Part shown: one piece after another, positions 1,639-31,389 of the stretch
Layout: every line of letters begins with the position of its first letter
How positions within the stretch are numbered: position 1 is the first letter of the stretch
From: Chloroflexi bacterium bin125
GTDB taxonomy: Bacteria; Chloroflexota; Dehalococcoidia; Bin125
Direction: 5' to 3'
Length of the DNA: 42,712 bases
Assembly: GCA_002239025.1 (NCBI GenBank)
Contig: MPNM01000025.1
Coordinates: forward strand, 1-42,712
The notes under the pieces: model-generated
What the model saw: only the letters and a program-made list of their open reading frames with translations
Database searches by the model: none
What the model was told of the DNA's origin: nothing
Position numbers and translations under genes: made by a program

Positions 1639-3090
1639 TTACGTCGCCAATGAGGACTCCGCAGGACGCATCGGCAGCCACACCGTGATCGTCGTGCCAA
1701 CACCGACCGTGCTCTCAGCCCCGATGCGGCCGCCATGCGCTCTCACGATCTCCCGACTGATGGCCAGGCCCAGGCCGGCTCCGGGACCGCTGCGCGACTC
1801 TGGCTGCCAGAACCGATCGAACAACTTGCCCAGGTCTTCAGCCGCAATACCCTCGCCGCTGTCCTCGACCCTGATCTCGATGCCATCATCGACAGATCTC
1901 GCCGCCATCGTCACTGAGCCTTCGGACGTATGGCGCAACGCGTTGTCCATCAGGTTGTTCAGCACCTGGACCAGGCGGTCGTAGTCGGCTTCAATCGTAG
2001 GAGTGCCTGCCTCAATCTCCGTCCGCAGGACGACGCCTGACTCGTCGGCCCGACCGCCGAACATCGCCTCGATGTGTCCGAACAGTTCTTCCAGGTCGAT
2101 CCGCGACGGCTCCAGCCGATATTCGCCGGCTTCCAGACGCGACAGATCCAGCAACTGCTCAATCATTCGCAGCATCCGCTGCGTCTCCTGATGCACGACC
2201 TCCAACGACGATGCACGCCGCTCCGGGTCCGTCACTGTGCCGTCGCGCAGCGCCTCGACGAAACCGCGGATCGAGGTCAACGGCGTGCGCAGCTCGTGCG
2301 AGACGTCGGCAATGAAGCTACGCATCGCCCGTTCGTTGTCCGAGACTCGCTCAGCCATCGCATTGAATGCCCTGGCAAGGTCACGCACCTGCGACGGACC
2401 GGACTCTGAAGCGCGGGTGTCGTAGCGGTCCGGCCCGAACTGGCGCACCACGCCGGTCAACGCTTCCAACGGACGCATCAGTTGCCGCGACATGATCATC
2501 GCCAACACAACAGCCACCGCCAGTCCGGCGAGTCCGGCGACCACGAGCCGCCCGATCAGGTCATCGATTGAACCGAGTCGGTGATCATCGCCGAAGGTGA
2601 CCGCCATCAACAGACCACGATCTCCTTGCGCGCCATCTGAGGGTCTTACGAGGACCCGGACTAGCATCGGCCGCCAGTCGCCGCCGATGTACAACTTGGA
2701 GTCGAACCACTCAGCAGCATTGCCTTTTTCGACAATCACGGAGTATTGCACGCCCAGGTAGTCGTCCTTCAGCCCGCGAGCCGGCGCAAATCCCTCGATC
2801 ACGCGCCCATCACCGTCTGCCAGGATCACGATCAATCCAGCGTGTTCCGCCTGCTCGCGGATCAGTGTGACGATTTGGTTCCGGTCAATCGCCGCGGCGC
2901 TGCGCAGAATGCGAGCGATCTCGACTCTCAGCGCATTGCCCGCGGTTCGCAACTCCGAGCGGTCAATGTCTTCGCGGTACCCGCCAAACAGCGATGCAAA
3001 CACCACGCCAGGCACGATCACCATCACCAGCACCAGTCCGGCAAACCCGGCAAACAACCTCAGACCGTAGCCACGGCGCAATGTCGTCAC
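1639..3090 (-). CDS. membrane sensor histidine kinase (PhoR/BaeS type)
   Basis: A 483-residue two-component sensor. A first membrane helix at about residues 11-35 precedes an extracytoplasmic domain of about 150 residues. A second helix follows at about 185-208 (LVVAGLAGLAVAVVLAMIM), then a HAMP linker at 210-260. The dimerisation/phosphoacceptor box is ADVSHELRTPLTS at about 272-284, with the phosphorylated His inside it. The ATPase domain shows the N box (NNLMDNALRH), the G1 box (VEDSGEGI), an F box (LFDRFWQ) and the G2 box (GAGLGLAISREIV). The kinase should phosphorylate its own His and pass phosphate to the response regulator 260 bases upstream on the same strand; a palindromic repeat separates the two genes. 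The stimulus cannot be told from sequence. Confidence 0.93.
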   Translation of the reverse strand: MTTLRRGYGLRLFAGFAGLVLVMVIVPGVVFASLFGGYREDIDRSELRTAGNALRVEIARILRSAAAIDRNQIVTLIREQAEHAGLIVILADGDGRVIEGFAPARGLKDDYLGVQYSVIVEKGNAAEWFDSKLYIGGDWRPMLVRVLVRPSDGAQGDRGLLMAVTFGDDHRLGSIDDLIGRLVVAGLAGLAVAVVLAMIMSRQLMRPLEALTGVVRQFGPDRYDTRASESGPSQVRDLARAFNAMAERVSDNERAMRSFIADVSHELRTPLTSIRGFVEALRDGTVTDPERRASSLEVVHQETQRMLRMIEQLLDLSRLEAGEYRLEPSRIDLEELFGHIEAMFGGRADESGVVLRTEIEAGTPTIEADYDRLVQVLNNLMDNALRHTSEGSVTMAARSVDDGIEIRVEDSGEGIAAEDLGKLFDRFWQPESRSGPGAGLGLAISREIVRAHGGRIGAESTVGVGTTITVWLPMRPAESSLAT

Positions 3091-3351: not shown

Positions 3352-4107
3352 TCAGCCAGTTTGTCGTGCGCTCGTTTCCACCAGCTTGTACCCGACACCC
3401 CGCACCGTCTCGATGGCGACGCCCGGATCGCCGCCGTCCGGCGCGAGCTTACGGCGTAGTTGGTTGACGTGAACGTCAACCGTTCGTGTCTCTCCGAAGT
3501 ACTCGTAGCCCCAGACTTGTTCCAGGAGTTGCTCTCGAGTCAGGACGATGCCGCGGTACTCCGCGAGTTGTTTGAGCAGCTCGAATTCCTTGTTGCGCAG
3601 CTTCAACGACCGGCCTGACAGCGTCGCCTCACGCCGATCCCAATCGACACACAACGGACCGACCTCGAACTGGCCGCGCATTCCAGGGCCTGCGTTGACA
3701 CGACCCGGCCCCGCGGCAGCGCGGCGCAGGATCGCCTTGACGCGCGCCGTGAGCTCGCGAGGATGAAACGGCTTGCCCAGGTAGTCGTCCGCGCCGAGCT
3801 CCAGACCAACAATCCGGTCCACATCCTCCGAGCGTGCGGTCAGCATCAGGATCGGCACATCTCGGATCGCACTCGCGTCGGAACGGAGCTCGCGAGTCAC
3901 TTCATAGCCCGATTTCTTTGGCAGCATCAGGTCGAGCACAATCAGATCGGGCGACTCCGCACGAGCGACGGCTAGGGCCGAGACGCCATCGTCGGCCGTG
4001 ATCACGCCAAACCCCTCCTGCTCGAGATAGAGCGAGCACAACTCGCGGATATTCGCCTCGTCGTCGACTACCAACACGGTGCGGTCGGTGCTGTCATTGA
4101 GGGACAT
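3352..4107 (-). CDS. PhoB/OmpR-family response regulator
   Basis: A 251-residue two-domain transcription regulator. The receiver domain spans about residues 9-125, with the acidic pair in VVDDEANI, the phosphoacceptor Asp in LIVLDLMLPKKSGYE, the switch Thr in LMLTAR and the conserved Lys in ADDYLGKPFHPREL. A linker of about 25 residues leads to an OmpR-type winged helix at about 150-245, recognisable by LKLRNKEFELLKQLAE, LTREQLLEQVWGYEY, RTVDVHVNQLRRKL and IETVRGVGYKL. It probably works with the histidine kinase downstream on the same strand. The ATG at 4107 is the natural start. The regulon is not evident. Confidence 0.95.
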   Translation of the reverse strand: MSLNDSTDRTVLVVDDEANIRELCSLYLEQEGFGVITADDGVSALAVARAESPDLIVLDLMLPKKSGYEVTRELRSDASAIRDVPILMLTARSEDVDRIVGLELGADDYLGKPFHPRELTARVKAILRRAAAGPGRVNAGPGMRGQFEVGPLCVDWDRREATLSGRSLKLRNKEFELLKQLAEYRGIVLTREQLLEQVWGYEYFGETRTVDVHVNQLRRKLAPDGGDPGVAIETVRGVGYKLVETSARQTG

Positions 4108-4220
4108 CGCCGATCACTCCCTTCCGCGTTACTCACATACTCACGGTCGAGGGTACGCAGCGACATCAAGGCCCGGTCAGGCCTTCGTCAGCAGTCAGTA
4201 AAGCGGAACCTAGAAGGAAC

Positions 4221-4242
4221 GCCAGCGAACCCGAACGCTGGC
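4221..4242. terminator. GC hairpin downstream of rpsU
   Basis: GCCAGCG (4221-4227) and CGCTGGC (4236-4242) form a perfect 7-bp stem with an 8-base loop, 12 bases past the rpsU stop. No U-tract follows on the minus strand, so intrinsic termination is only a possibility. Confidence 0.35.
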
Positions 4243-4253
4243 TACACCTACCG

Positions 4254-4466
4254 CTAGCGGGGCATCCTCGGACGGCGCACCTTGACCATCGCTCGACGGC
4301 GCCGGCGCGCGGCGCGGCGCTCGGCCTGTCGTTGCTTCTCGCGATTGCTGATAAACCGGCGACGCCGCCGCGACTCCTGCAGCACGCCGTCGCGCTGCAC
4401 CATTTTGTTGAAGCGGCGGATGAGAGCTTCGGGGCTCTCTTGCTCTTTGCGGCTCACCAGTAGCAT
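4254..4466 (-). CDS. rpsU: 30S ribosomal protein bS21
   Basis: A 70-residue, strongly basic protein with the bS21 core: the ESPEALIRRFNKMVQRDGVL segment, an arginine run (ESRRRRRF) and a lysine/arginine-rich tail. It binds the small subunit near the 3' end of 16S rRNA and assists initiation. The ATG at 4466 is preceded by AGAGGAAC as ribosome binding site. It is transcribed alone, between the surface-protein cluster and the response regulator. Length matches bacterial bS21 (about 60-75 residues). Confidence 0.95.
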   Translation of the reverse strand: MLLVSRKEQESPEALIRRFNKMVQRDGVLQESRRRRRFISNREKQRQAERRAARRRRRAMVKVRRPRMPR

Positions 4467-4651
4467 GGGCGCTCAGTTCCTCTGATCGACATTCAGTTTC
4501 TACACACTTACGGGTCAGTCTAACAGGGCTTCGGTCACGCGCCGTTGCCACGCCGGATCCATGCCAAGAAGAGAACAACCAGGCTGGCCAGCGTCACGTT
4601 CTGCTGACCAGGCTGCAGAGGATCGCGACACTGGAACCGAGCTAACAGGCG

Positions 4652-6028
4652 CTACCGAGGCGGATCATCCCCACTTCCCGATTCAGCGACTGCCCGGCGT
4701 CTGCGCCGGACGCCCTTCAACAGAACTGTGGCTGCCAGGACAGACAAACCCAACGAGGCGCCCAGCACGACCTCCCACTGCGAGCCAGCTTGTTCGCTCA
4801 GCGTGCCGCCGGTCCCCGTCTTTGGCGCATCTGGTCTTACAGGATCCTGCGCGTCGTCCGATTCCTGTTCAGATGCTGTCTCAGCCTGTGAACTCGCTTG
4901 GTCGGTGGTCGTCGCCTCCTGTTCAGTCGCCTCAGACTGAACAACGTCATCATCAGCCTCGAGTGTGTCGTCGGAATCCTGATCCTTCGAGTCCGTCGCC
5001 TCATCCGACTGGCTACTCTCGTCGTCTGTTGCCGTCTGGCCATCGGTCGAGTCGGTGTCCGCCGTTTCGCTGCTCGTGTCATCGCCGTCGGTCGTCTCTA
5101 CGCCGTTCTCGCTACTGACCTGCTGTTCGTCTTCCTGATCGCCATCCTGACTCGCACTCTTGTCGTCTTTGTCGCCGTCGTCCTGTTCGTCTCCCTGATC
5201 GCCGTCCTGACTCGTACTCTGGTCGTCTTCGTCGCCCTTGTTCTGATCGTCATCCTGATCGTCATCCTGGTCGTCTTCATGCCTGTCCTGCTGACCATCT
5301 TCGACTTCGTCGTCCACGACAGTCGTTTCGCTGCTCGTCGAACCTCCACCGACTCCACCTCCGATTGTGGTTGTTGGCGGCGGAGGATTGGTCAGTTCTT
5401 GCTCGTCATCGACAATGGTGCTGCATGGCGTGTTGGCATGTTCGGCCTTCATGCTCCGATTCAGCCACACCCGGACCGAAATCTCCGCGAGTGGATCGTC
5501 AGTTGGGACGCATCGCCCAAACTGGGCGCTTGCTGTTCGAACAGATCCGCCAGCTCCGGGATCCTTGATTGCGAAGCGCGCATTGAGCTTGCATGGCAGA
5601 AACCCGTCCGAGTCCAGATCGATGGGCACGAATTGATCTTGCTCATCTCTGACGCCAAACGAACTTCCCGACTTCGTGATTGGTCTGTCGTTCTCATCGG
5701 TGATGAGGGTGGACCAGAGGGAGTTCAATCTCCAACTCCGGTCAGATCTCGCCGCTGCTTCATTCACCGGTCCTTCGGCCCCCGGAATCGTGGCGTAGAC
5801 CCACACTTCGTGCCGATCATTTCCACTGCCGTCAAGCAGCGCTCCGGTGTAGGTCCGGGACGCGCCGGGGTGTGAACACCAGTCCACTGCGATCCGTTCC
5901 ACGGACTGTCCCCGGACGGTCAGAATCCCGCCAAATGCGAACAACACCGCGACGACCAGCGCCGCCGTCGCAACTACGGCCGCTGTCCACCGCTGTCGCA
6001 GTGTGAACTTCGTCTCTGGGAATCTCAT
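4652..6028 (-). CDS. secreted acidic-stalk protein with APKTGTGG sorting signal (paralog A)
   Basis: 458 residues. An N-terminal basic stretch and hydrophobic helix (residues about 13-38) form a signal peptide or anchor. The exported domain (about 45-215) contains a WCSHPGAS segment shared with the next gene and ends near VRVWLNRSM. A stalk of about 180 residues rich in Asp, Gln, Ser and Thr includes tandem SQDGDQ-DEQ repeats. The C-terminus reads RPDAPKTGTGG, a 20-residue hydrophobic helix, then GVRRRRR: the layout of a sortase sorting signal with a divergent LPxTG-like motif. It is the last gene of a five-gene run of paralogs on this strand. The protein is probably displayed at the cell surface. 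Its ligand is unknown and no sortase gene is in the window. Confidence 0.85.
   Translation of the reverse strand: MRFPETKFTLRQRWTAAVVATAALVVAVLFAFGGILTVRGQSVERIAVDWCSHPGASRTYTGALLDGSGNDRHEVWVYATIPGAEGPVNEAAARSDRSWRLNSLWSTLITDENDRPITKSGSSFGVRDEQDQFVPIDLDSDGFLPCKLNARFAIKDPGAGGSVRTASAQFGRCVPTDDPLAEISVRVWLNRSMKAEHANTPCSTIVDDEQELTNPPPPTTTIGGGVGGGSTSSETTVVDDEVEDGQQDRHEDDQDDDQDDDQNKGDEDDQSTSQDGDQGDEQDDGDKDDKSASQDGDQEDEQQVSSENGVETTDGDDTSSETADTDSTDGQTATDDESSQSDEATDSKDQDSDDTLEADDDVVQSEATEQEATTTDQASSQAETASEQESDDAQDPVRPDAPKTGTGGTLSEQAGSQWEVVLGASLGLSVLAATVLLKGVRRRRRAVAESGSGDDPPR
5123..5242. repeat. two 60-base tandem repeats in the acidic stalk
   Basis: 5123-5182 and 5183-5242 are near-identical 60-base units, both starting CTGTTCGTCT, followed by a degenerate third at 5243. 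On the minus strand they encode the repeated SQDGDQ-DEQ segment of the surface protein stalk. Length variation between strains is likely here. Confidence 0.8.
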
Positions 6029-6061
6029 GACTTGGTGACCGCTCGCCGGAGGGCCCCGCCT

Positions 6062-7264
6062 TCATTGACTCTGAGGCTTGCCGCGTCGTCGATACAAGGT
6101 CAGCGAGACGATTCCAATCACTGCCACCGCAGCGACAAACGCAGTCAATGCGATAGCTCCCTCGCGGTCAGACGATTCGGCCGCGGCACCGCCTGTGCCG
6201 GTCCTCGGCGCGCGTGGCCTGGCAATCTGTGTCTGTTCCTGCGACTCCGCGCGCTCGTCGGGCTTGACCCATGCGGTCTCTGAAGATCCCGCATCTTCAA
6301 GAAGGTCTTCCGACACGTCATCCTCCAGGGCATCGTTGCCAGACGTCTCCTCCGAGACACCTGTTGTCGAGGCGCCGGTGTCCTCGCCATCTTCATCGCT
6401 CGTGTTGCTGACAGAAGACTGGTTCGGGCTAATGTCAGATCCCGCCTGGTTCGATTCGGTTGTCGTCGATGCCTGATTGTTGTTCGTCTGAGTTGGCGTT
6501 GGGTTCGTATTGGTCCGTGTAGGGTTTGGCGCGTTGTTGACCGTGGGTGTCTGTCCGCCGCCGTTGACAGGCTCTGCTGCGTTCGCATCTTCCCCACTCA
6601 CACTGTTCCCACCGTCGTCCACATTGCTATTGCCGCTGCCGCTGTCCGACGAAGCGTCATCGCTGGGCGGATCCTGTCCCGGCAGCAATGCGGAGGGATC
6701 CTCGGCATCGCATGGGATGCTCAGCTCATCTGCAACCATGTCGCGATTCAGCCAGACGCGGATGCTGCGAATCCGGGTACCTGAGTCAGTCCGGCCGACC
6801 GAGTAGTCCTCGTGATTTGGATCGTCGGTCAGCACCGGAACCTCGACCGGACACGGCTGATATGAAGCTCGGGCCGTTTGGGCAGCCTCGCCCCACTTGG
6901 CAATCCGGAAACTGGCTCGCAACGAGCAGGTGCCGTCGTTGTGCTCAACCAGCAGCGAGCTCCAGTAGATGTATGAGCCCCAGCCACGATTCGGCCAGAC
7001 ACCGCCTGTGGAAATCGACTCGGTGTAGTCACCATGGGTGGGATGGATGTAAATCGAGTCGCCCGTGCTTGAATCCCCATCCAGCAAGGAACCGTCCGGG
7101 TGAACAGAGGCTCCAGGATGAGAACAGATCAGCAACTCCCAATCGCTGTAGTCCGTCTGCTGAGCACTCGAGAACTCAATGCCCAGGAACAGCACCAGGA
7201 CGCCCAGCGCCGCCAACATGGCGGCGCGTAGCCAGAGCTTGGGTGCCAGCAGGAGCGGACTCAT
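6062..7264 (-). CDS. secreted protein with APRTGTGG sorting signal (paralog B)
   Basis: 400 residues. Signal helix at about 12-33 (AAMLAALGVLVLFLGIEFSS). The exported domain carries ICSHPGASVHPDGSLLDGD, clearly related to paralog A, and ends at SIRVWLNRDMVADELSIPC. A low-complexity linker rich in Asn, Thr, Gln, Ser and Asp follows, with an acidic EDDVSEDLLED block. The end is RAPRTGTGG, a hydrophobic helix (IALTAFVAAVAVIGIVSLTL) and YRRRGK. Its ATG overlaps the stop of paralog C by 4 bases (7261-7264), so the two are translationally coupled. Conserved cysteines in the exported domain may form disulfides. Role unknown; surface anchoring is inferred from the tail. Confidence 0.85.
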   Translation of the reverse strand: MSPLLLAPKLWLRAAMLAALGVLVLFLGIEFSSAQQTDYSDWELLICSHPGASVHPDGSLLDGDSSTGDSIYIHPTHGDYTESISTGGVWPNRGWGSYIYWSSLLVEHNDGTCSLRASFRIAKWGEAAQTARASYQPCPVEVPVLTDDPNHEDYSVGRTDSGTRIRSIRVWLNRDMVADELSIPCDAEDPSALLPGQDPPSDDASSDSGSGNSNVDDGGNSVSGEDANAAEPVNGGGQTPTVNNAPNPTRTNTNPTPTQTNNNQASTTTESNQAGSDISPNQSSVSNTSDEDGEDTGASTTGVSEETSGNDALEDDVSEDLLEDAGSSETAWVKPDERAESQEQTQIARPRAPRTGTGGAAAESSDREGAIALTAFVAAVAVIGIVSLTLYRRRGKPQSQ

Positions 7265-8559
7265 CGTAGGGAGTCCTCATGGTCCCTCCGTTTGCCGGTA
7301 AACGCCCTCCCAACAGCATGCTGCGCGCTTCGAACGAAGCGTCGATTCACGATTAAGACTCCCACGACCGCCGTCAGTACCGAAGCGACGCCGATCAGAA
7401 CCAGCCAGTAGCTATTGCCGCTCTGTGCAGCGATCCCACCGGTACCTGTCCTTGGCGCGTCTGGCCTGACAGTTTGTTGACTCGATTCTGCCGAAGGAGC
7501 GCTGGCCTCTCCGGAACTGTCGGAGGCATCGTCATCCTCAAGCAAGTCGTCTCCTTCGTCCACGTCGCTCGTTTCCGAATCCTCATCGGAAGCCTCTAGC
7601 AGGTCGCCCGAATCTGAGTCCTTGCCGTCATCTTTCGGGTCATCGTCAGACGTTTCGCCGGACTTCGTCTTGTCGTCGGTGCCTGGCTGTTGATCGTTAC
7701 TCTGATCGTTCGAGCTACCTGATTGCTCGCCAGAGTCAACGTCATCAGGGTCCGTTTCGTCTATATTGCCACCGTCGTTACCACTGCCGGTGCCTCCACC
7801 ACTGCCGCCGCCATTGCCACCGCCGTTACCGCTGCCGTTGCCTCCACCACTGCCACCGCCATTGCCGCCGCCACTGACGCTGCCACCTTCGTTGTTGTCC
7901 GGCTCATCTTCCTCGGTATCGTCTACCTCGACATTGTCCTCCGGTTCGGAGGGACTGACCGGATTGACCGTCTGCGTGGTATCGCCGGAGTTGGTTCCCT
8001 CATTGCCCACCGTGTCGGTGCTCGATGTGGTTGCTGGCGCTCCCTGTGGACATACTTCAGCCGGCGTACCGGTTGGCCGGCTGGTGTTCAGCCAGAGCCG
8101 ACCCTGGCACGGAGGCAATGGGTCAAACTCCACGACCGCTTCTTTGAAGTAATCCTGCCCCTTCTCCCGCATCATCACCTTCAGATTGATGACGCAAGTG
8201 GCCGTCCCTGCCTCCTCGTAGACGTATCCGGCGGGAATGTACATCCCCCAGCTCAGATCGTCGCGCACGTAGGAACCGCCGCTGCTCGTGACGTTTTCCT
8301 CGGTCACCGTGTCTTCAGGTACCTGGTCGTTGGAGTCAAGAATCGCCTCGAAGTTTCTCGAATTGACCACGATGATGTAGTCACCCGCGATTGCGGCCGT
8401 GCCGTCGGCTCGCTTTGTCTCTCCCGGACCGGAACACAACAAGAACTGGTTGCTCTGTGATGCAACAGTCTCTCCGCCAACGACGAACATGACGATTGCC
8501 AGAACCATGACAACAACGACTCTACGTAGAACGCGCCCTTCCCCTCGAAACAGTCTCAT
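7261..8559 (-). CDS. secreted Gly-rich-linker protein with APRTGTGG sorting signal (paralog C)
   Basis: About 432 residues from the ATG at 8559 (MRLFRGEGRVLRRVVVVMVL); an upstream ATG at 8595 is possible but puts a polar extension before the signal helix. After the signal (VVVVMVLAIVMFVVGG) an exported domain starts FLLCSGPGETKRADGT, a diverged form of the CSHPGAS domain of paralogs A and B, and ends near RLWLNTS. The linker contains a glycine-rich stretch (about 7780-7890) of repeated GGGNGGGSGG units, then Asp/Ser-rich acidic sequence. The tail is RPDAPRTGTGG, a hydrophobic helix and basic residues (NRRFVRSAQHAVGRAFTGKR). Probably a surface-displayed protein. Confidence 0.82.
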   Translation of the reverse strand: MRLFRGEGRVLRRVVVVMVLAIVMFVVGGETVASQSNQFLLCSGPGETKRADGTAAIAGDYIIVVNSRNFEAILDSNDQVPEDTVTEENVTSSGGSYVRDDLSWGMYIPAGYVYEEAGTATCVINLKVMMREKGQDYFKEAVVEFDPLPPCQGRLWLNTSRPTGTPAEVCPQGAPATTSSTDTVGNEGTNSGDTTQTVNPVSPSEPEDNVEVDDTEEDEPDNNEGGSVSGGGNGGGSGGGNGSGNGGGNGGGSGGGTGSGNDGGNIDETDPDDVDSGEQSGSSNDQSNDQQPGTDDKTKSGETSDDDPKDDGKDSDSGDLLEASDEDSETSDVDEGDDLLEDDDASDSSGEASAPSAESSQQTVRPDAPRTGTGGIAAQSGNSYWLVLIGVASVLTAVVGVLIVNRRFVRSAQHAVGRAFTGKRRDHEDSLR

Positions 8560-8614
8560 GTTGCTTCCCGTCAGTTCGTCATTTGTTTGCATCACGAGGT
8601 AGCCAGTTGGTTTG

Positions 8615-9481
8615 TTAGTGAGGTGATTCGTCGGTCCGGCGTTTAACCATCACGGTCATTAGACCGATAGCGAAGACCAGCAGGGCCAATACACCAGCCA
8701 CAACTGGCCAGTTGGCCGTTGTTTCTCGGACGTAGACGCCGCCAGTGCCGGTCCTGGGAGCATCTGGTCGTTGAACCCCGGAGGATGTCTCCGGCGCTTC
8801 GGCCTGAACGCCGCTGTCATCATCGTCAGCATGGTCAGCCTCGTCGATCCCGTCTTCATGCTCCGAGTCTGAGGTTGGCGCGGTCGCGTCGTCCTCCAGC
8901 GTGTCGTCCTCCAGCGAGTCGCTCAGTACCTCTTCGGTTGACCCGTTGGCAGCTTCAGGCTGACTACTTCCAACGCTGTCGTCGCTCCCATCTATGGACC
9001 CCGGCTCGGACACTGCTTCAGCCTGGGCTCCATTGGAGCTTCCCCCGGTCGTCGTAGCGATCGCGACTGCTACCTGGATGTCGCCGCAACCGCGTGCGTA
9101 CGCGAATTCCTCAGTCGTCACCGTGACCGCACGCTGTTGGCTGTGAATCTCGTAGACGACCTGGCACTCGCCGATCGGGGGTTCCTGGTAGAGATGCTTG
9201 AACGTGAGAAAAAAGCCATTCTCGGCAACCACTGCCGGCGTCACTGCGTTGCCATTGAGGATCGGAGTGATCGAGTCGCCGACTTGAAGTGGCTCGCCAT
9301 CAATGGTCACATCGGCGGCGTAGCCAAAGAATTGGTAGTAGTAGTGGTCGGGCGAGGGTTGACGCTCGGTCTGCGAGTCTTCTTGCGCGCGAATCACGCG
9401 CACACCCAGGATCAACAGGACAAGGCCCAGCAACAGCAACGTTGCCGTGATCACGTGACGCCACGTGCCAACTGCTGGCAT
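8615..9481 (-). CDS. secreted protein with APRTGTGG sorting signal (paralog D)
   Basis: About 288 residues from ATG 9481, which has AAAGGA upstream; the longer frame to 9583 adds an unlikely leader. A signal helix (ITATLLLLGLVLLILGVRVI) precedes a compact domain with FFGYAADVTIDGEPLQVGD, closely matched in the next gene (FFGFSGDVTIDGEALLPGD). This DVTIDG domain of about 100 residues is unlike the CSHPGAS domain of paralogs A-C. An acidic linker with SLEDDTLEDD leads to RPDAPRTGTGG, a hydrophobic helix (WPVVAGVLALLVFAIGLMTV) and KRRTDE. Located in the same tandem run; it probably shares the same anchoring machinery. Ligand unknown. Confidence 0.83.
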   Translation of the reverse strand: MPAVGTWRHVITATLLLLGLVLLILGVRVIRAQEDSQTERQPSPDHYYYQFFGYAADVTIDGEPLQVGDSITPILNGNAVTPAVVAENGFFLTFKHLYQEPPIGECQVVYEIHSQQRAVTVTTEEFAYARGCGDIQVAVAIATTTGGSSNGAQAEAVSEPGSIDGSDDSVGSSQPEAANGSTEEVLSDSLEDDTLEDDATAPTSDSEHEDGIDEADHADDDDSGVQAEAPETSSGVQRPDAPRTGTGGVYVRETTANWPVVAGVLALLVFAIGLMTVMVKRRTDESPH

Positions 9482-9590
9482 CACCTGGTCCTTTCTCAAT
9501 CGCTCGTCTGGCCGGTGCGGACTCGCCTTTTGTCTAGAATTGCCGTCCTTCCCGCAGCCGATCGAATGTCGGCGACAGGACATCGATCCA

Positions 9591-10292
9591 CTACGCGGCC
9601 CCGTCAGTTCGCCGAGCGATCAGCAGGGCGACTACGGCAGCAGCAAAGGTCAGGAGCGCGGTAACCGCCGCCGCGCGCGGCCAATTCGTTTCTTCACCAA
9701 CACCGAGTGCGCCGCCGGTGCCAGTCCTCGGCGCTGCAGGACGTACGATTTCTCGCTCCTGCGAAGACTGGGCATCCTGCTCGTCGTCTCCCGCGAGACT
9801 GTCCGTTTCATCCGCTTCAAGAGCGTCAGTTGCACCCTCGGACGTCGTAGATGCACTGTCGTCAGCGGCGCGGCCCGCCGAGCCGTTCCCTGACTCGGTT
9901 CCTGAATCAGCTGACGCTTGTGGTCGAACGAGCGCGAGCCTAACCCTGAGCGGACAGGTGTCCCAGCTCTGATGGACACTCAGACCACGAATAACAAACA
10001 TCATCTCGCAGGGATTGGTTTCAAGTAGCGAGGCATCGACATCCAGGATCCATGCGCCAGCAGAATTGACCGTGGATCGACCGATTTCGACGCCGTCCAT
10101 GAAACCGACAATCTCATCGCCTGGCAGCAACGCCTCGCCGTCGATGGTTACGTCGCCCGAGAAACCGAAGAATCGATGCGTTGCGCTCTCTTGCGCTGAG
10201 GCAGTCAGGGTCACAAACAGCGCAGACAACACTGCCAGCGACACAGCGATCAACACCACCACGAGTCGTCGCCTACCGGTTGCGACCTGCAT
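9591..10292 (-). CDS. secreted protein with APRTGTGG sorting signal (paralog E)
   Basis: About 233 residues from ATG 10292, preceded by GAGAGGA. Signal helix LVVVLIAVSLAVLSALFVTL, then the DVTIDGEALLPGDEIVGFMD domain shared with paralog D, with cysteines in NPCEMMF and DTCPLRVRL. A short acidic linker (ALEADETDSLAGDDEQDAQ) is followed by RPAAPRTGTGG, a helix (WPRAAAVTALLTFAAAVVAL) and LIARRTDGAA. It is the first gene of the five-gene run, so any promoter for the cluster should lie in 10293-10576. It is the smallest paralog with the shortest stalk. Confidence 0.83.
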   Translation of the reverse strand: MQVATGRRRLVVVLIAVSLAVLSALFVTLTASAQESATHRFFGFSGDVTIDGEALLPGDEIVGFMDGVEIGRSTVNSAGAWILDVDASLLETNPCEMMFVIRGLSVHQSWDTCPLRVRLALVRPQASADSGTESGNGSAGRAADDSASTTSEGATDALEADETDSLAGDDEQDAQSSQEREIVRPAAPRTGTGGALGVGEETNWPRAAAVTALLTFAAAVVALLIARRTDGAA

Positions 10293-10576
10293 CAATCCGT
10301 CCTCTCGACAAGCACTGCTTGCACTTTGCGTCCTGAACCAGAGCGCAAGCAACCGGTGCGTTACCCGCCGAACCGGCGCTTTACGCAGGCACAACAAATG
10401 CAGGGCCGTGAAGCCAACAGAACTGTCCGGAAGGATCAGTAGGTCAAGCCGCAGCAAACCATAAGAAGTGAGAACGTCAGTGGTTGTCGAACGGGAGCAC
10501 CTAGCCCGTTTCGGCTTCGTTCAGGAACTCGAATAGCGCTCCTGGCTCGGCGCCTTACCACCCGCCTCAGTAAGCG

Positions 10577-10870
10577 TCAGGTAAGGCGAGCAATGGCCAG
10601 CGCGATACCGGCGATGAGCGCAGTGGCTCCGATCATCTTCACCATCGCAGCGTTGATTTCAGTTCTCATCTCTCCGTGAAGGGCTGCCATATCTGCTGAA
10701 ACCTTTTGGGACAGCTCTCTCAGATCATCCTTCGTTGCCACAGGAGAAAACTCATCTTGGAATGCTGCAACGAACGCCTCAGCGTCTTCCTCGCCAAAGC
10801 GTCGACGAACGACCTGAAACAACCGCAGCCGATCAATCAGCCTCGGCCGCGATTCGAAGCTCATGTCCAT
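10577..10870 (-). CDS. small coiled-coil protein with C-terminal membrane helix
   Basis: 97 residues. The middle part (about 40-75) is a predicted amphipathic coiled coil (ATKDDLRELSQKVSADMAAL, then HGEMRTEIN) and the end is one hydrophobic helix (IGATALIAGIALAIARLT). This resembles the small DUF1640/CCDC90-like proteins common in bacteria, often of unknown role. A second ATG six bases downstream (10864) is an equally possible start. The gene stands alone between the surface-protein cluster and the oxidoreductase. Confidence 0.65.
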   Translation of the reverse strand: MDMSFESRPRLIDRLRLFQVVRRRFGEEDAEAFVAAFQDEFSPVATKDDLRELSQKVSADMAALHGEMRTEINAAMVKMIGATALIAGIALAIARLT

Positions 10871-10924
10871 GGCGACAACTGCGCCAACTAGTACACCCGT
10901 ACTGATGTGCGAACAGCAGTGGTT

Positions 10925-12244
10925 CTAGATAGTGGACATTGCCGCCGGCGAGATACCGACCGGATCCGAACCCTCAGGCAGGTCGAAGGGTCCCGGTAGA
11001 TCAAGCTCCTTGGCCATCTCACGGACTGCCGGCAGGACCTCTTCGCCCATGAGCCGCAACGAGCGCATCGAGTCCTCGTGCGTCATCGATCCGTCGCCGT
11101 CCCAGAAACAGATACTGCCTGGGCGCAGGTACTCGAGCACGTGCCGAATCTTGGGGATCACCGTCTCCGGCGTGCCGGAAATGATGCTGTACGACTCCTC
11201 GAGCCCTCGGTAGGTGTCATCGGTGTCGACGAAGCCTTCAGCGGCGTCGAGCTGGAGCCGCTTGTAGTCGTCGGGATTCACTTCGCTGGTCCCACGAGAC
11301 TCCTCGACATGCCGCACGCCTGCTGTCGGTAGCAAGCGACGCCGGTCGATCATTCCGGGCAGATTCTGGATGTGGCGCTTAACGTCGCCGCGTGAGCCCT
11401 CAAGGAAGATGTTGCCCGGACCGGTCAGGTACTTGCGACCGACCTCTTCGGCCTTTTCCTCGGTTTCGTCAACATGGACCTTCCACAGGTACCCGCGATG
11501 CTGAGGCCCAGCCTCGTAGCCGAACTCTGCCGCAATCTTGTCGTAGTAGGCGAACGAGTCGCGCGTCGGGGCGAGCCGCGTCGCCAGCATCACGTAGGGA
11601 TATCGATGCTCGGCGGCCCAGGCGACGGTGCGCTGAGAGACCGCTCCGGGAATCCAGATCGGCGGATGCGGACGCTGGAGCGGCTTCGACCACGGGTTCA
11701 CGTAGCGATAGTCGTAGTGCTCGCCCTCCCAACGAAACGGGCCGGCATCGGTCCAGGCCTTGACCACTAGGTCGTGCGCTTCCTGGTAGCGCTCCCAGTT
11801 GTATGGGGACTGCGAGTTGTGGGCCAACGACTCGCGACCGGTGCCACGCACCCAGCCGGTGATCAGCCGACCGCCCGAGATCATATCGATCTCGGCCAGG
11901 GTTTCGGCCAACCAGAGCGGATCTTCCCAGATCGGCAGAATGTTGCCAAGCAGGCAAATCTTGACGTGCTGTGTGATCCGGGCAAGAATCGCCGCCTCGA
12001 CGTTGAGCACCGATCCCATGCAGAACGGCGTCGAGTGATGCTCGTTCAGAATCACGCCGTCGAAGCCGGCCTCTTCGGCTGCCACCGCCTCGTCGAGATA
12101 GCGGTGATACAGATTGGCGCCGAGCACAGGATCGTACTCGTCGTTGGATGAGTCCAGGTCGGTCAAACGACGTCCGGTGCGACCCCACCACGATGCTTCG
12201 GGATCCTGGTACGGCCGCTCGGTGAACCAGCCAATAAACATCAT
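10925..12244 (-). CDS. LLM-class (luciferase-like) flavin-dependent oxidoreductase
   Basis: A 439-residue member of the bacterial luciferase-like monooxygenase superfamily, a TIM-barrel fold that uses reduced FMN or F420. The N-terminal signature is present: EEAGFDGVILNEHHSTPF, with the EHH typical of this family, then VKICLLGNILPIWEDPLWLA, LAEIDMISGGRLITGWVRGT and PPIWIPGAVSQRTVAWAAE, the conserved stretches around the flavin site. The family oxidises varied substrates such as aldehydes, alkanesulfonates, amines and cyclic compounds; nothing here identifies the substrate. ATGs at 12244 and 12241 are adjacent. Monocistronic, with no linked reductase or transporter. Confidence 0.9.
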   Translation of the reverse strand: MMFIGWFTERPYQDPEASWWGRTGRRLTDLDSSNDEYDPVLGANLYHRYLDEAVAAEEAGFDGVILNEHHSTPFCMGSVLNVEAAILARITQHVKICLLGNILPIWEDPLWLAETLAEIDMISGGRLITGWVRGTGRESLAHNSQSPYNWERYQEAHDLVVKAWTDAGPFRWEGEHYDYRYVNPWSKPLQRPHPPIWIPGAVSQRTVAWAAEHRYPYVMLATRLAPTRDSFAYYDKIAAEFGYEAGPQHRGYLWKVHVDETEEKAEEVGRKYLTGPGNIFLEGSRGDVKRHIQNLPGMIDRRRLLPTAGVRHVEESRGTSEVNPDDYKRLQLDAAEGFVDTDDTYRGLEESYSIISGTPETVIPKIRHVLEYLRPGSICFWDGDGSMTHEDSMRSLRLMGEEVLPAVREMAKELDLPGPFDLPEGSDPVGISPAAMSTI

Positions 12245-12302: not shown

Positions 12303-12695
12303 TCAGCGGATGCACCTGATATCAACCCCTTGAAGTGGAGGCACTCTCAACCATGGACGATCCGCGGTCAAGACGGGAAGCCCCAATCGGAATCCCAGTG
12401 CAAGGCACGATCGGTCCCCAAGCGAAAGCCCTGCTTCCCGTGTCTTGAGACGGAGGAAACCTGCTGTAAGCCCATCATCCTCAGAAAGGCTCTCCACTGC
12501 GAAATCGATCCCCGACAACGCTGCAAGAATGTCGTCTGTCGGCATTCCATAGTCAATCAGTTTGGCGACTATTTCAGACAGATTGACAGCGCTGATCGCC
12601 GCCCCATCCTCCAATGCGCTGCGGACGATGTTTGCGCCCCGCTCTTCATTGATGATTGCCATCAACGCCGAGGCGTCCAAGACCCACTCACTCAC
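12303..12695 (-). CDS. PIN-domain toxin (VapC-like)
   Basis: About 130 residues. PIN-domain ribonuclease signatures: VLDASALMAIINEE near the start (first catalytic Asp), NLSEIVAKLID (conserved Glu), and GDRSCLALGFRLGLPVLTADRPW carrying the later acidic residues. I chose the GTG at 12695 because it overlaps the stop of the upstream antitoxin gene by 8 bases, the usual coupling in vapBC operons; an ATG at 12722 is possible. VapC toxins cleave specific RNAs, commonly initiator tRNA, and are neutralised by the cognate antitoxin. Target here unknown. Confidence 0.85.
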   Translation of the reverse strand: MSEWVLDASALMAIINEERGANIVRSALEDGAAISAVNLSEIVAKLIDYGMPTDDILAALSGIDFAVESLSEDDGLTAGFLRLKTREAGLSLGDRSCLALGFRLGLPVLTADRPWLRVPPLQGVDIRCIR

Positions 12696-13026
12696 GTGCC
12701 GCTTCGGCTCTTCGATCGGCAATCAACTCATCCACCAATGACACATCTCTCGGTACGTACTTCGCAACCAGCTCTTGAGCCCGCTTGATTCCAGCTTCGC
12801 GCTCTTCCGGCGTCATCTGCGGTCCCCTCACCATCGTCAAACGAGCATCGCTGACTTGCTGCATGGACAATGGCTCCTCTTGCCCATGGCCGCGATCCTT
12901 CGCCGCGTCTGCGATTGCGCGATCTAGTCCAACCTCACTGTCGAACAGATCCAGCGCTTGCTCAGCTACCTCGCGGGGTACCCAACGGCCTCGCAGATAG
13001 AAGTGGTCCGTCACACGATCCCTCAC
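12688..13026 (-). CDS. probable antitoxin of the PIN toxin
   Basis: 112 residues from a GTG at 13026. It begins VTDHFYLRGRWVPREVAEQA and is rich in charged helices throughout, ending VDELIADRRAEAARE. No clear AbrB or ribbon-helix-helix motif can be named with certainty, but size, order (directly upstream of a PIN toxin) and the 8-base overlap are those of a VapB-type antitoxin. It would bind and inhibit the toxin and repress its own promoter. The C-terminal helix is the likely toxin-binding part. Confidence 0.65.
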   Translation of the reverse strand: MRDRVTDHFYLRGRWVPREVAEQALDLFDSEVGLDRAIADAAKDRGHGQEEPLSMQQVSDARLTMVRGPQMTPEEREAGIKRAQELVAKYVPRDVSLVDELIADRRAEAARE

Positions 13027-14202: not shown

Positions 14203-14543
14203 TCCCGCCGTTCCGGTTGTCCGAGCTTCGCGTCGGGCAAAGTATGGGGCAACGCTGTCTCAGGGGCGCTGCCCATGAGCATTGGCCTGATTGTTCTTCG
14301 GGCTGAGTCCTTTAGGGACGTGGTCGTCGAACAGTCTCTGCGCCGACCTGTCGTAAGGCGCTGCTCCCTGCGAAAGCCCCTTGAACCGCGTAGCGAAGGT
14401 CAAATCGAAGGCACACCAATTCCTCCAGATTGGTAGTCAGCCGATGCATGGCCGCCAAACGTTCAACTGAGCAGGGGCCACCAAGGCTTGCCGACGAAGG
14501 CAATCTATGCGGTTCGCCCTTGTTCCGCGAAGGACACGTCCAG

Positions 14544-15488
14544 ATGACACTGACGAATACCCAGCTTCGCTACTACGACTCGCACGTCTTGCGCTTACCG
14601 GCAGACAAACGAGCCGAGTACCACGCCCAAGTCGATCGGCTGATTGCAGAACTCAGTCGCTCATTGCAAGAGAAGACCGAGATCGAGATCACCAAAGTGG
14701 TGAAGTCCGGGTCGTTCGCGAAGTTCACGATTCTCAGGAAGACCACTTCCGATCCGGTGGATGTTGATGTGGTCTTCTACATTTCTGGGCGAACGATCGG
14801 AGATGAAACGCTGCAAGAACTGAATGACGCAATCTACTCCCTGCTCTTGGAGGTCTACCCGAACAAGAAAGTGGAGGACTTCGAGCTTCAGCGGAAAGCG
14901 GCGACTGTCACGTTCATTGGAACTGGCTTGAGCGTGGACATCGTTCCGGTCATTCAGACTGAAGCAGGTTCTGACTACGGCTGGCAATTCGATCTCAGCG
15001 ACGGCAGTGCAATATTGACGTGCGCGCCATGCCAGATCCAATTCGTCCGCGACCGCAAGACGACGGACTCGGACTTCCGGACACTCGTGCGCTTGGCGAA
15101 ACGCTGGAGGAATCACGCCGAGTTGAAACCGCTCAAGTCCTTCTCAGTCGAGCTGATCATGGCGTACCTGCTTGATTGTGAAGGCCAGACCGGAACAATC
15201 GACGAGCGCTTCCGGCGGTTCTTGCTCTACATCGCGCAGTCCGGGCTGAAGGACATCATTGCCTTTCCGGAGAACCAGCCACCTCTCGGCAGCTTCTCTG
15301 AGCCGGTCGTGATCATCGATCCGGTGTATAGCTTCAACAACGTCGCCGCGAGAATCACCGAGGCAGAGAGGCAGGAGATTGTCGCAACGGCAAAAGAGGC
15401 ATGGGAAACGGCGAGTTTCGCGTCGGTCGAGGACGACTACGACCTTTGGAAAGAACTCTTTGGCCCACGGTTCAAAGTCGAGGAATAA
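14544..15488 (+). CDS. CD-NTase (CBASS cyclic oligonucleotide synthase), type III system
   Basis: About 314 residues from ATG 14544; longer in-frame starts (TTG 14430) add a non-conserved leader. The polymerase-beta-like fold shows the GS motif and metal-binding acidic pair in KSGSFAKFTILRK then DPVDVDVVFYI, and the third carboxylate in LSVDIVPVI. The C-terminal OAS1-like helical domain includes LVRLAKRWRNHAELKPLKSF and SVELIMAYLLD. Enzymes of this clade (C/D-like by their HORMA/TRIP13 partners) make cyclic di- or trinucleotides on phage infection that activate a neighbouring effector. The next gene begins two bases after its stop and encodes the HORMA activator, so the assignment is firm. 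The exact product cannot be read from sequence. Confidence 0.93.
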   Translation: MTLTNTQLRYYDSHVLRLPADKRAEYHAQVDRLIAELSRSLQEKTEIEITKVVKSGSFAKFTILRKTTSDPVDVDVVFYISGRTIGDETLQELNDAIYSLLLEVYPNKKVEDFELQRKAATVTFIGTGLSVDIVPVIQTEAGSDYGWQFDLSDGSAILTCAPCQIQFVRDRKTTDSDFRTLVRLAKRWRNHAELKPLKSFSVELIMAYLLDCEGQTGTIDERFRRFLLYIAQSGLKDIIAFPENQPPLGSFSEPVVIIDPVYSFNNVAARITEAERQEIVATAKEAWETASFASVEDDYDLWKELFGPRFKVEE

Positions 15489-15490
15489 CG

Positions 15491-15991
15491 ATGAGCTACA
15501 CAGAAACGACAACGGCCACCCAGACGTACACGACGGTAGACATTGAGAAGGTAGTTCGGAGATTCACGGCTGACATGGTGATGATCGCGAGCAGCACTGG
15601 CGCAATCACCGAAGCAGAGGCGCGAGATTATGCTCACGACGTGGAAGCCCTGGCGAAGGCAGGATTCCTGCGCAAAGTGGACATCACGTTGTTGAGCTGC
15701 GGGATAGAGGTCACTGCCGTGACCTACGTCGTCAATACGTCGGCCGGCGAATTGACGACAAGCCGGCCGGGCGGGGTGCTGTGGCGTCGCGTGTCAGCGC
15801 CGCATCTTCGGATCGTCCTGTTCTACACATCGAGCTACGACGGCGACGCCAGGGAGTCCATGCGAAAGCATCTCAAGGTCGAGTGGGTGCCGACATCTGA
15901 GGACACCAGCCATTTCACACTCAAGCAGGTCGCCGGTCGCGACTACGCAAGCAACGGGTGGGGTTTGCAGCGAACGGACTTTGGTTTGTGA
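15491..15991 (+). CDS. cap7: bacterial HORMA-domain protein (Cap7-like), CD-NTase activator
   Basis: 166 residues from ATG 15491, two bases after the CD-NTase stop. The family hallmark opening is present: MSYTETTT, TYTTVDIEKVVRRF, then MIASSTGAITEAEARDYAHD. In type III CBASS the HORMA protein senses a phage peptide in its closed state and binds and activates the CD-NTase; a TRIP13-like ATPase opens it again. The C-terminal half (GGVLWRRVSAPHLRIVLFYT and later) is the safety-belt region. The next gene starts at a GTG that overlaps this stop by 4 bases. Size fits the family (about 160-180 residues). Confidence 0.9.
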   Translation: MSYTETTTATQTYTTVDIEKVVRRFTADMVMIASSTGAITEAEARDYAHDVEALAKAGFLRKVDITLLSCGIEVTAVTYVVNTSAGELTTSRPGGVLWRRVSAPHLRIVLFYTSSYDGDARESMRKHLKVEWVPTSEDTSHFTLKQVAGRDYASNGWGLQRTDFGL

Positions 15992-16884
15992 ACGAGAACA
16001 GCATCTTCGACGCGGAGGTTGTCCTGCCGGACGAGGACCTGAACAACAGAGAGAAGACACTGCTAGGCTTCGACACTCGGTACTCGAGGGTTCGGAATCA
16101 ACTACGGCTCCTGTTGAATGTCGACCAAATCGAGGCGTGGAACCGTCAGTACTACGGCGGACGCCTGGCCATCTGCGACCTAATCCTGGAGCAGTATCCG
16201 CTGGTGATCTTTCACGGGGACGTAGGAACAGGTAAGACAGCGACAGCGGAGTGCATCGCGAACCGCTTGGTGACCGAATCGCACACCGAAGATTCGGTGT
16301 TGTTCAAGCTGAGCAATCGGGTACGAGGCAGCGGCAAGGTTGGGGAGATGGGCTCCCTGCTTACAGAAGCGTTTCAGCGTGTGACGATGTCCGCCGGCAA
16401 ACGCCGTCGCGCCATCTTGATCATCGACGAAGGCGACTCACTCGCCGCGTCTCGGTCGCAGGAGCACAGCCATCACGAGGACAAGGTGGCTGTGAACACT
16501 CTGATTCAGGGCATCGACGCACTGCGCCGGGCCGGCGGCCGCATCGTAGTCTTCCTCTGCACCAATCGCATGAACGCTCTCGACGCCGCCTTGCTGAGGC
16601 GCGCGGCCATTGTCGAAACGTTTCGACGCCCCTCGGCTGATGAGCGCCGTCAGTTGTTCAGAATGGATTTAGGCGCCCTCGACCTGACTGCGGAGCAGAT
16701 CGGTGAGTTGGTCACGTTGACTGGACCCAACTGCGAGGCTCCTGAGTGGACCTAATCCGATATCCGGACGCGATTGTACCCCGCCGCCCTGGCACAGGCC
16801 TTTCCCGACCGCGCCATTTGCTTCGACGATCTTCGATCTGCGGCCTCAAGTTTGGAACCGTCACCAGTGATGGAGGATCGCTGA
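15988..16884 (+). pseudogene. cap6: TRIP13-like AAA+ ATPase (Cap6-like) with one in-frame stop
   Basis: Starts at GTG 15988, overlapping the HORMA stop by 4 bases. AAA+ motifs: Walker A GDVGTGKTAT, Walker B ILIIDEGDSLA, sensor 1 VVFLCTNRMNALD, arginine finger region DAALLRRAAIVE. It remodels the HORMA protein and keeps CBASS off without phage. The frame is stopped by TAA at 16753-16755, but reading on in the same frame gives SDIRTRLYPAALAQAFPDRA up to TGA at 16882-16884, the usual C-terminal lid of this family. Relatives normally have an aromatic residue (as in WTYSD) at the stop position, so TAA is one substitution from TAT/TAC. About 42 residues are lost if the stop is real. Sequencing error or readthrough are alternatives. 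Confidence 0.85.
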
Positions 16885-18053
16885 TGCCCAATCGCTCGCC
16901 ATTGTTCGGTCGCCGCATCCATATCGCGGGATCGGTCGCTCGGGATCCAGACGTCGCGAAAGCTAGCGATGTCGACCAAGCCCGCGAGTTGGTGGAAACG
17001 CTCGTTCTCCAGTTGATGGAACATGGCGCGACCTTCGTTTTACCGGTTGACGCTGAGCCGGTGCGAGATGAGGATAAGCAGCCCGTCTGCTTCGATTGGC
17101 TGGTTTGGCGCACTCTGTAGAAGCACTTTCACAAGCGACCCGACAGTGCCGTGGACCCGCTGGCGGTCGGCGTGCAACACCACAAGAATGAGCAGCAGAT
17201 CCCCGCGCAGTACCAGACACTTTGGGACGATCTCCGAGGCACAGCTCACGTGCAGATCGAAAACGTGTCCCACTGGAACATGAACAGCAAGCGGATGGAG
17301 GCTCAAGCCCGCTTTGGCGACATCCTCATCGCAGTTGGAGGCGCTGAGGGAGTCCAGTTCCTTGCGAACCTCTACCACGAGGCGGGCAAGCCGGTTGCTC
17401 CACTGAATTGTCCTGTGACTAATCCTGACCAGGGAGCGCTCAAGCTGTTCAACAGAGGCCTATCTTCGGCCGAAACGGCGGGCCTGTTCAAGGTGGGTGG
17501 CGTGTTGAGTGCGCACAACTGGATCAATCGCATCAATTTCACCACACGCACACCAGTCGCTGAGCGCGTAGAGCAGATTCTGGCACTGCTCGAAGCACTC
17601 GATCCGCCGCAAGCGTTCGTTATCCGACTCCTCGATCCTCAGAATCCCAACTATGAGGATGCGCAGGAATTCTTCGATACGGTGGTCCAGCCGATTGTGG
17701 AGGGCGAACTTGGTTATCGGTTGGTCGTGGTCGATGGACATCAGCCGTTTGAGCATGCCCGAATCGATCAGGACATATTCGCCAAGCTGCACCGCAGCCG
17801 AGTGGTTGTTGCGGACATCACTGGTTCACGTCCGAACTGCTTTCTGGAGCTCGGTTATGCACTCGGCCGTGGCCTGCCGGTGATAATGACATTGCGTGAA
17901 GGTGAACCTCATCCGTTCGATCTCACGACCTTTGCCGCACTGCATTGGCAGGCCATCGGAGGTGTCGAGGAGCGGCGTCGCAGGTTCCGAGAGCACTGGG
18001 GGGCCATCGAGTCGCGTCCACCGCTTGTGCCTCCCGAACCGCTCATCCCATGA
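16884..18053 (+). pseudogene. SLOG (STALD-like) plus nucleoside-deoxyribosyltransferase/TIR-like effector, one in-frame stop
   Basis: The ATG at 16884 shares a base with the preceding TGA. The N-terminal SLOG-like half opens RRIHIAGSVARD, passes CFDWLVWRTL, and continues after TAG 17118-17120 in the same frame to GDILIAVGGAEGVQFLANLY and GKPVAPLNCPV, the nucleotide-binding glycine motif. The C-terminal half (AFVIRLLDPQNPNYEDAQEF, SRVVVADITGSRPNCFLELG) resembles nucleoside 2-deoxyribosyltransferase/TIR-like folds that bind or cleave nucleotides such as NAD. The likely role is the effector triggered by the CBASS second messenger. The stop splits the SLOG domain; the downstream 300 residues could start at GTG 17151 but would lack the first strand. 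Ends with a 4-base overlap on the exonuclease gene. Confidence 0.8.
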
Positions 18054-18643
18054 CAAACGGGCGTGATCTGTTCGTGTCGGTCGATATCGAGACCGCTGGG
18101 CCAATCCCTGGTGAGTACAGCCTCCTTGCGATTGGCGCGTGCCTGATTGATGCCCCCGAAAGGACGTTTCTCTGCTATCTCCAGCCGCTGAACACCAATG
18201 CTGATCCTGCGGCGTTGAAGGTCACTGGTCTGTCCCTGCAGGAGTTGGAGCGAACAGGACTGGCCGCAGAGCAAGCCATGACCCGGTTCGCCACGTGGCT
18301 TGAAGCAAACCGCAGCTCCGCTGATCGGCTCGTGTTCGTGGGACTCAATGCCCCGTTTGACTGGTCGTTTGTCAACTACTACTTCCACCAGTTCGTGGGA
18401 GAAAACCCCTTTGGTTTCACAGCGCTCGACATCAAGGCGTACTACATGGGCGCTAGTGGAGTGGCCTGGACAGAATCCACATCGAGCGGCATGGCGGAAG
18501 CCTTCGGGATCGATGAGACGGGCGATCACAATGCTCTCCATGATGCTCTGTACCAAGCCGAACTGTTCAGACAGACTCGGAATCAAGTTTCCAGCCGTGA
18601 TCTGGGTGGAGGCCTTCCCGGAGGGCAGAGGAGGGTCGAGTGA
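18050..18643 (+). CDS. DEDDh-family 3'-5' exonuclease
   Basis: 197 residues from ATG 18050, overlapping the preceding stop by 4 bases. RNase T/DnaQ-like exonuclease signatures: the first DxE motif in FVSVDIETAGPIPGEYSLLA, the second Asp in VFVGLNAPFDWSFVNYYFHQ, and the DEDDh His/Asp in DHNALHDALYQAELF. This fold removes nucleotides from single-stranded DNA or RNA 3' ends with two metal ions. Coupling to the SLOG gene upstream and closeness to the QueC-like gene (155 bases downstream) suggest it belongs to the CBASS operon, where it may degrade nucleic acid or trim signalling nucleotides; that role is inference. No polymerase domain is attached. Confidence 0.85.
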   Translation: MTNGRDLFVSVDIETAGPIPGEYSLLAIGACLIDAPERTFLCYLQPLNTNADPAALKVTGLSLQELERTGLAAEQAMTRFATWLEANRSSADRLVFVGLNAPFDWSFVNYYFHQFVGENPFGFTALDIKAYYMGASGVAWTESTSSGMAEAFGIDETGDHNALHDALYQAELFRQTRNQVSSRDLGGGLPGGQRRVE

Positions 18644-18798
18644 GTAGCTCCAGTGGCGCGAACAGTTGGCGGAAGGGTAATGGGCGAGTTGCGAACGAAA
18701 GCGCGGCTCGATGAAGGTGGTTGAGAGATTGGTAGGCTGTCCTCGCTCGAAAGGAATTGGCCTCGCCAGCAAGAGGGAGCAGCGAAGATGGGTCACGG

Positions 18799-21209: not shown

Positions 21210-21232
21210 CCATTCCCAGAGAGGGACGGACC

Positions 21233-23238: not shown

Positions 23239-23246
23239 CGGTTCAC

Positions 23247-24299: not shown

Positions 24300-24315
24300 G
24301 GGAGTTCCTCCATCT

Positions 24316-24354
24316 GGTTTACAAACCATGGTACACTATCGGTATGTGTAAACC
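24316..24354. promoter_or_regulatory. inverted-repeat operator in the divergent promoter region
   Basis: GGTTTACA (24316-24323) and TGTAAACC (24347-24354) are perfect inverted copies with 23 bases between them; an inner half copy GTAAACC/GGTTTAC-like lies at 24318-24327 (GGTTTACAAACC). The site covers the start region of the XRE-ImmA gene, 17 bases upstream of its ATG, and lies 135 bases upstream of the patatin gene. The TTTACA hexamers on both strands could serve as -35 boxes. It is a natural operator for the XRE domain controlling both directions. Confidence 0.65.
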
Positions 24355-28332: not shown

Positions 28333-28333
28333 G

Positions 28334-31332: not shown

Positions 31333-31389
31333 TGCGGTATCAAAGCCATGAGTCATTGCAGCCGCACTCCTACGGGAGCGCTGTCCTCC

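Follow-up and report, generated by a model that had tools for sequence, protein, structure and literature searches.

Five tandem proteins with leucine-free LPXTG-like sorting tails in a Dehalococcoidia genome

The gene cluster

The window analysed here is a stretch of 42,712 nucleotides (nt) on contig MPNM01000025.1 of Chloroflexi bacterium bin125, a member of the class Dehalococcoidia, and coordinates are positions of this stretch unless another contig or locus is named. The genome to which it belongs (G000) comprises 3.68 Mb in 66 contigs and is 97% complete; the contig that carries the window is called C15 below. On the minus strand, the listing of open reading frames (ORFs) contains five co-directional genes that run from 10292 to 4652 in the order E-D-C-B-A, and their products end in tails resembling LPXTG sorting signals. 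We consider it highly probable that the five are surface proteins that the sortases of this genome anchor to the cell wall through a signal without Leu at P4, the first residue of the motif. The five tandem ORFs reported in an initial annotation of this DNA are all present, its outer limit at 10292 being the ATG of E.

Protein E (9591..10292, 233 aa from the likely ATG at 10292) consists of an N-terminal hydrophobic segment, a DVTIDG-type domain (9915-10193), a 58-aa acidic linker and the sorting tail. Protein D (8615..9481, 288 aa from the likely ATG at 9481) combines a DVTIDG-type domain (9047-9385) with a 93-aa acidic linker and a sorting tail. Protein C (7261..8559, 432 aa from the likely ATG at 8559) has a CSGPGET variant of the domain found in A and B, followed by a 189-aa Gly/Asp linker and its tail. 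Proteins B (6062..7264, 400 aa, likely ATG 7264) and A (4652..6028, 458 aa, likely ATG 6028) both have a CSHPGAS domain and a sorting tail, joined by a 158-aa Ser/Thr/Asn/Asp linker in B and a 188-aa Asp/Gln linker in A. The genes are spaced as in an operon, with 109 bases between E and D, 55 between D and C, and 33 between B and A, while the end of the gene for C and the start of B have 4 bases in common. A promoter scan of 4000-11000 returned 0 sites, with 1.3 expected.

Sorting tails

The motif reads APRTGTGG in E (9711..9734), D (8738..8761), C (7435..7458) and B (6188..6211), and APKTGTGG in A (4805..4828), all on the minus strand. A C-terminal hydrophobic segment lies 10-13 residues past the motif in all five proteins (19-residue Kyte-Doolittle mean 2.0-2.9) and is followed by a basic tail, so each C-terminus joins an LPXTG-like pentapeptide, a hydrophobic segment and basic residues, just as the initial annotation had described. 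An N-terminal hydrophobic segment is likewise found in 5/5 (mean 2.2-2.9), and between the two segments the Kyte-Doolittle mean never exceeds 1.0. P4 is Ala rather than Leu in every case, and none of the tails is therefore an LPXTG signal in the strict sense.

Chance is excluded as the origin of the motif, because only 4e-6 occurrences are expected in 1912 residues of the same composition and none of 100,000 shuffled proteins contained it. At the DNA level, a search of the 3.68-Mb genome with the motif pattern matched only the 5 sites in this gene set, and the reversed control matched none. The five 45-residue tails are identical to one another at 14-22 of 45 positions in pairwise comparison and are therefore not recent copies.

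Exported domains and linkers

The exported domains are 93-171 residues long and the linkers 58-189. That of A-C is common to all three proteins, at 30-38% identity to A, and D and E share another at 28% identity, which also occurs with other tails elsewhere in the genus. The CSHPGAS label that had been attached to all of A-C fits A and B; C, with CSGPGET, is a divergent member. Two unrelated domains had been proposed, and at the sequence level this stands, with a profile-profile probability of 0.8% between A-C and D-E; we claim no kinship between them at that value, and the predicted folds gave no decision. For the A-C domain, the predicted structure had a mean predicted local distance difference test score (pLDDT) of 40.8, too poor to use. 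The model of the E domain (mean pLDDT 60.3) had no Foldseek match at E<=0.001; the best had E 0.14, immunoglobulin (Ig)-like and adhesin modules were among the top rows, none of them at E<=0.001, and we claim no fold. Sequence searches of PDB with both domain profiles returned nothing significant. Our guess, from the architecture, is that the displayed domains serve in adhesion or in envelope structure.

All five linkers are acidic, with 20-36% Asp+Glu and 1-5% Lys+Arg. The Asp/Gln, Asn/Thr and Gly stalks first described are better given as Asp/Gln-rich in A, Ser/Thr/Asn/Asp in B and Gly/Asp in C. As a side observation, LE(A/D) occurs in the linkers of A (4835-5398), B (6218-6691), C (7465-8031), D (8768-9046) and E (9741-9914), 8 times in total where shuffles give 0.42, and 0/20,000 shuffles have it in all five; the motif was picked after looking.

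Sortases and peptidoglycan synthesis

A family search that covered the entire genome, and with it the window, found two adjacent PF04203 sortases on contig C24, above cut-off at 69.2 and 65.6 bits, and none in contig C15. The initial annotation had noted that no sortase lay nearby, which holds for the window and its contig, and had taken a genome devoid of sortases, together with intact C-termini on the mature proteins, as the outcome that would count against its reading; the genome encodes two. Exactly two sortases stand side by side on one contig in 15/15 genomes of the genus, where they form two paralogous types. The catalytic His, Cys and Arg are invariant in all 35 aligned sequences, which represent 35 of the 38 sortases of the family, three having been dropped by the extraction pattern. 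Class F (NF033748) is the best NCBIfam class for both enzymes, and we rejected this assignment, since their 70.8 and 81 bits are far below the cut-off of 166.

Cultivated members of the class Dehalococcoidia lack peptidoglycan. One study gives peptidoglycan as ancestral in the class, lost in orders 10-25 and present in part of the class (PMC10284905). In this genus, MraY is found above cut-off together with 4-5 transpeptidase-domain matches in 15/15 genomes (5 matches in G000), so the idea of a sortase without peptidoglycan was rejected here and lipid II is the likely acceptor.

Elsewhere in Dehalococcoidia, G025, G047, G056 and G046 (L209, L212, L211 and L210) have PF04203 sortases, yet MraY does not reach its cut-off in any of these genomes (G046 has one sub-cut-off match) and transpeptidase domains are not matched at all; either contamination or anchoring to another target could account for this. 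In G053, a protein ending in LPSTG, a membrane segment and RRR adjoins a sortase (L213, 2417-5488); in that genome MraY has no match and the transpeptidase has one.

Variation at P4 across the genus

The initial annotation had called for a genome search for other proteins ending in the motif as well as for sortases. We built a tail profile from 20 Leu-free tails, and its 20 matches in G000 at E<=0.1 consist of the tails of A-E, 14 other sorting tails and one short membrane ORF. Across the 15 genomes of the genus there are 83 matches at E<=0.001. Three of these are short membrane ORFs that lack the motif, and the other 80 are C-terminal tails in which it is present, sometimes as a near variant. 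In the 80 tails, each assigned by reading the profile match, P4 is Tyr in 21, Phe in 18, Ala in 12, Thr in 8, Pro in 8, Met in 5, Leu in 4, Ser in 2 and Val in 2. An automatic pattern count gave 82 tails (Y21 F18 A12 P9 T7 M5 V3 L3 S2 R2); this count imposes the motif, and a few of its tails may belong to other genera.

The same profile in five genomes of the family outside the genus gave 13 matches, of which 11 are tails, and P4 is Leu in all 11. The difference between the genus and its sisters has a Fisher p of 2.9e-11, which overstates the certainty because paralogous tails are not independent. As the profile came from Leu-free tails, its bias runs against finding Leu. P3, P1, P1', P3' and P4' are nearly fixed across the tails while neighbouring residues vary, leaving a near-constant core of P-x-(T/S)-G-x-G-G. 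Ala at P4 is thus part of a genus-wide release of that position and no private oddity of the five proteins. The signals of the genus fall into two broad types, aromatic/Met (Y/F/M-P) and small-residue (A/T/P/S-P).

Small proteins that are nearly identical to one another and have (F/Y/M)P.TG(T/S)GG tails are numerous on contigs C30, C35, C41, C54, C58 and C64 of G000. An ORF at C30:101535 seems to fuse a transposase-like N-terminus, so labelled from reading the sequence, to such a tail.

Differences between the sortases

When the 28 aligned sortases of the genus are set against the 7 from its sisters, 12 alignment columns have no residue in common. Among these columns, the one 22 residues before the catalytic Cys is Pro in 28/28 genus enzymes and Trp in 6/6 orthologous sister enzymes; the seventh sister sortase, which is divergent, has His. 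By analogy with the established sortase fold, this position should be in the predicted beta6/beta7 loop. In Staphylococcus aureus SrtA the Leu of LPXTG sits close to that loop, and APXTG and FPXTG enzymes were obtained by redesigning it (PMC9126251). The Trp-to-Pro position is a lead, a candidate only for the change at P4, with lineage differences of other cause mixed in. With 12 columns separating the two groups, we rejected pinning the change on a single residue. Our tentative proposal, which has a real chance of being right but which we would not yet back, is that the tandem sortases read P-x-(T/S)-G-(T/S)-G-G through the Pro and the primed side, so that P4 became free to take any of at least nine residues, with the Trp-to-Pro change as part of the cause.

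Proposed mechanism and alternatives

The architecture of the five proteins, the two sortases with their catalytic triad, the peptidoglycan genes and the genus-wide change at P4 are the material on which the proposed mechanism builds. The signal peptide would start export and would presumably be cleaved. The C-terminal hydrophobic segment and the arginines would then stop export and leave P-x-T-G-T-G-G at the outer face of the membrane, where one or both of the tandem sortases would cut, probably between Thr and Gly. A thioacyl intermediate would form, the protein would be passed to an acceptor, presumably lipid II, and penicillin-binding proteins would incorporate it into peptidoglycan. In this way an acidic linker, probably unstructured, would display the N-terminal domain. 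The enzymes of the genus would no longer demand Leu at P4, where Tyr, Phe, Ala, Thr, Pro, Met, Ser and Val occur.

Several points weigh against anchoring by these sortases. None of the Pfam and NCBIfam anchor models reaches its cut-off on the five tails. The sortases score below the class F cut-off, so class membership gives no guide to their specificity; their genes lie apart from those of the presumed substrates; and we know of no experiment on these sortases. Another genome of the family, G017, comprises 6 contigs at 94% completeness; five LP.TGTGG tails occur in it (L195-L199), one attached to an E-like domain, and neither PF04203 nor a profile made from the sortases of the genus found a sortase there, which may reflect an assembly gap, a true loss, or another enzyme able to act. 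In G006, the D orthologue reads TPKLGTGG, with Thr replaced by Leu in an otherwise intact tail.

The initial annotation had offered either an unusual sortase specificity or a non-sortase processing enzyme. The former is the better half, because there are two PF04203 sortases and the genus-wide tails rarely have Leu, and another enzyme is not needed. Processing by an exosortase- or rhombosortase-like membrane protease, with the sortases serving other proteins, would suit G017 with its tails and no detected sortase, and the double Gly of the tail recalls GlyGly-CTERM. We nevertheless find it quite improbable, since P-x-T/S-G stands 10-13 residues before the membrane segment, sister genera bear canonical LPxTG in the same tail, and every CTERM model listed at E<=1 stays below its cut-off: GVDTG_CTERM (NF058571; 20.6 bits in B and 21.6 in C against a cut-off of 29, with A, D and E not listed at that threshold), Firmicu_CTERM (C) and one MXYO-CTERM family exception model (D). 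For the five proteins, neither the PEP-CTERM nor the GlyGly-CTERM model appears at E<=1, and no search for an exosortase in the genome was made. That the tail might never be cleaved, the C-terminal segment being a permanent membrane anchor and the motif a relic, is an idea to which the altered G006 tail lends something; the near-fixity of P3, P1, P1', P3' and P4' amid varying neighbours, a constancy that a plain membrane anchor would not require, makes it highly improbable.

Anchoring by the sortases may also be refined into a division of labour, in which one sortase would take the Y/F/M-P signals and the other the A/T/P/S-P signals, including those of the five proteins. Two paralogous sortase types and two broad signal types in the genus would match in number, but no gene neighbourhood or pattern of presence and absence links one sortase to one signal type, and G012 has both sortases yet no A1-type signal at E<=0.001. 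We regard this refinement as a possibility, though an unlikely one.

Conservation of the locus and the rest of the window

Directly downstream of A, between it and the response regulator, lies the gene for the small ribosomal protein bS21 (rpsU, 4254..4466, minus strand), a genus copy of which matches PF01165 above cut-off; it is a conserved neighbour outside the anchoring system. Further conserved neighbours, all on the minus strand, are an OmpR/PhoB-type response regulator (3352..4107), a sensor histidine kinase (1639..3090) and, upstream, a luciferase-like monooxygenase (10925..12244) that marks the locus in the genus.

We compared 12 regions of the genus. The monooxygenase is followed by an E orthologue in all 12, and 10 of them continue with the response regulator and the histidine kinase, one region being cut by a contig end and one lacking both. 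A clear D orthologue (39-43% identity) is present in four, and another sorting-tail gene takes its place in two. Genes A-C are in none of the 12, apart from a remnant of an A-type gene at the position of A-C in G006 (L099 5300-6220; 22 residues, 59% identity, E 9e-5). From this decayed gene, at least one further member of the genus seems to have had A-C in the past. We rejected A-C as a genus-wide family: among 20 family genomes only G000 has them, plus the G006 remnant.

A small gene pair at 12303-13026 resembles a PIN-type toxin and its antitoxin, a label given from reading the sequence, and the same PIN-like pair adjoins the monooxygenase in three regions of the genus (L100, L103 and L106). 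Positions 14430-27047 hold dense defence genes of the cyclic oligonucleotide-based antiphage signalling system (CBASS) type: a cyclase, HORMA, TRIP13 and a TIR effector (14430-18050), QueC, TGT and a second cyclase (18757-21206), and a phospholipase effector with a third cyclase and an E2 part (24379-27047). Beyond them is a 7-deazaguanine DNA modification (Dpd) cluster (29453-42712), with matches to DpdA, DpdC (weak), QueC-like, DndB-like, DpdE, DpdF and DpdH proteins, DpdH nearly reaching the window end. Two ORFs between the two clusters (27217-29384) resemble, on reading, pieces of transposases.

Relation to known systems and significance

The system shares P-x-T-G, the membrane segment and the basic tail with LPXTG signals and sortase A-type anchoring, and the genome has sortase and lipid II genes. 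It differs in having no Leu at P4, in the extended T/S-G-G after the presumed cleavage site, and in its lineage, Chloroflexota/Dehalococcoidia. Class F is the nearest sortase class by score for both enzymes, yet far from close enough for membership.

Natural variation at P4 is already known from the class C pilin sortase signals of Streptococcus pneumoniae, given as YPRTG, IPQTG and VPDTG (PMC5640630), with Tyr and Val among the non-Leu residues. Those signals belong to one pilus, whereas here P4 varies genus-wide and we identified no pilin features. Also known is LAXTG, used by class E sortases, likewise a single-residue departure from LPXTG (PMC5148588); it has Ala at P3, whereas here Pro is kept at P3 and P4 changes. 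The engineered S. aureus SrtA variants F40 and F1-21 (APXTG/FPXTG) accept Ala and Phe at P4 through changes in the beta6/beta7 loop (PMC9126251); they came from directed evolution, while the signals described here are natural and also have Tyr, Thr, Pro and Met. No report of the signals of this genus was found in the open-licence literature searched.

In the laboratory, directed evolution has produced sortases that are less selective at P4 (PMC9126251); here, closely related lineages differ in P4 naturally. With Leu in 11/11 sister tails against 4/80 in the genus, and with related sortases on both sides, the determinants of P4 recognition become directly testable, and ligation enzymes with new signals could result. 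For the class, the finding documents a sortase system in Dehalococcoidia.

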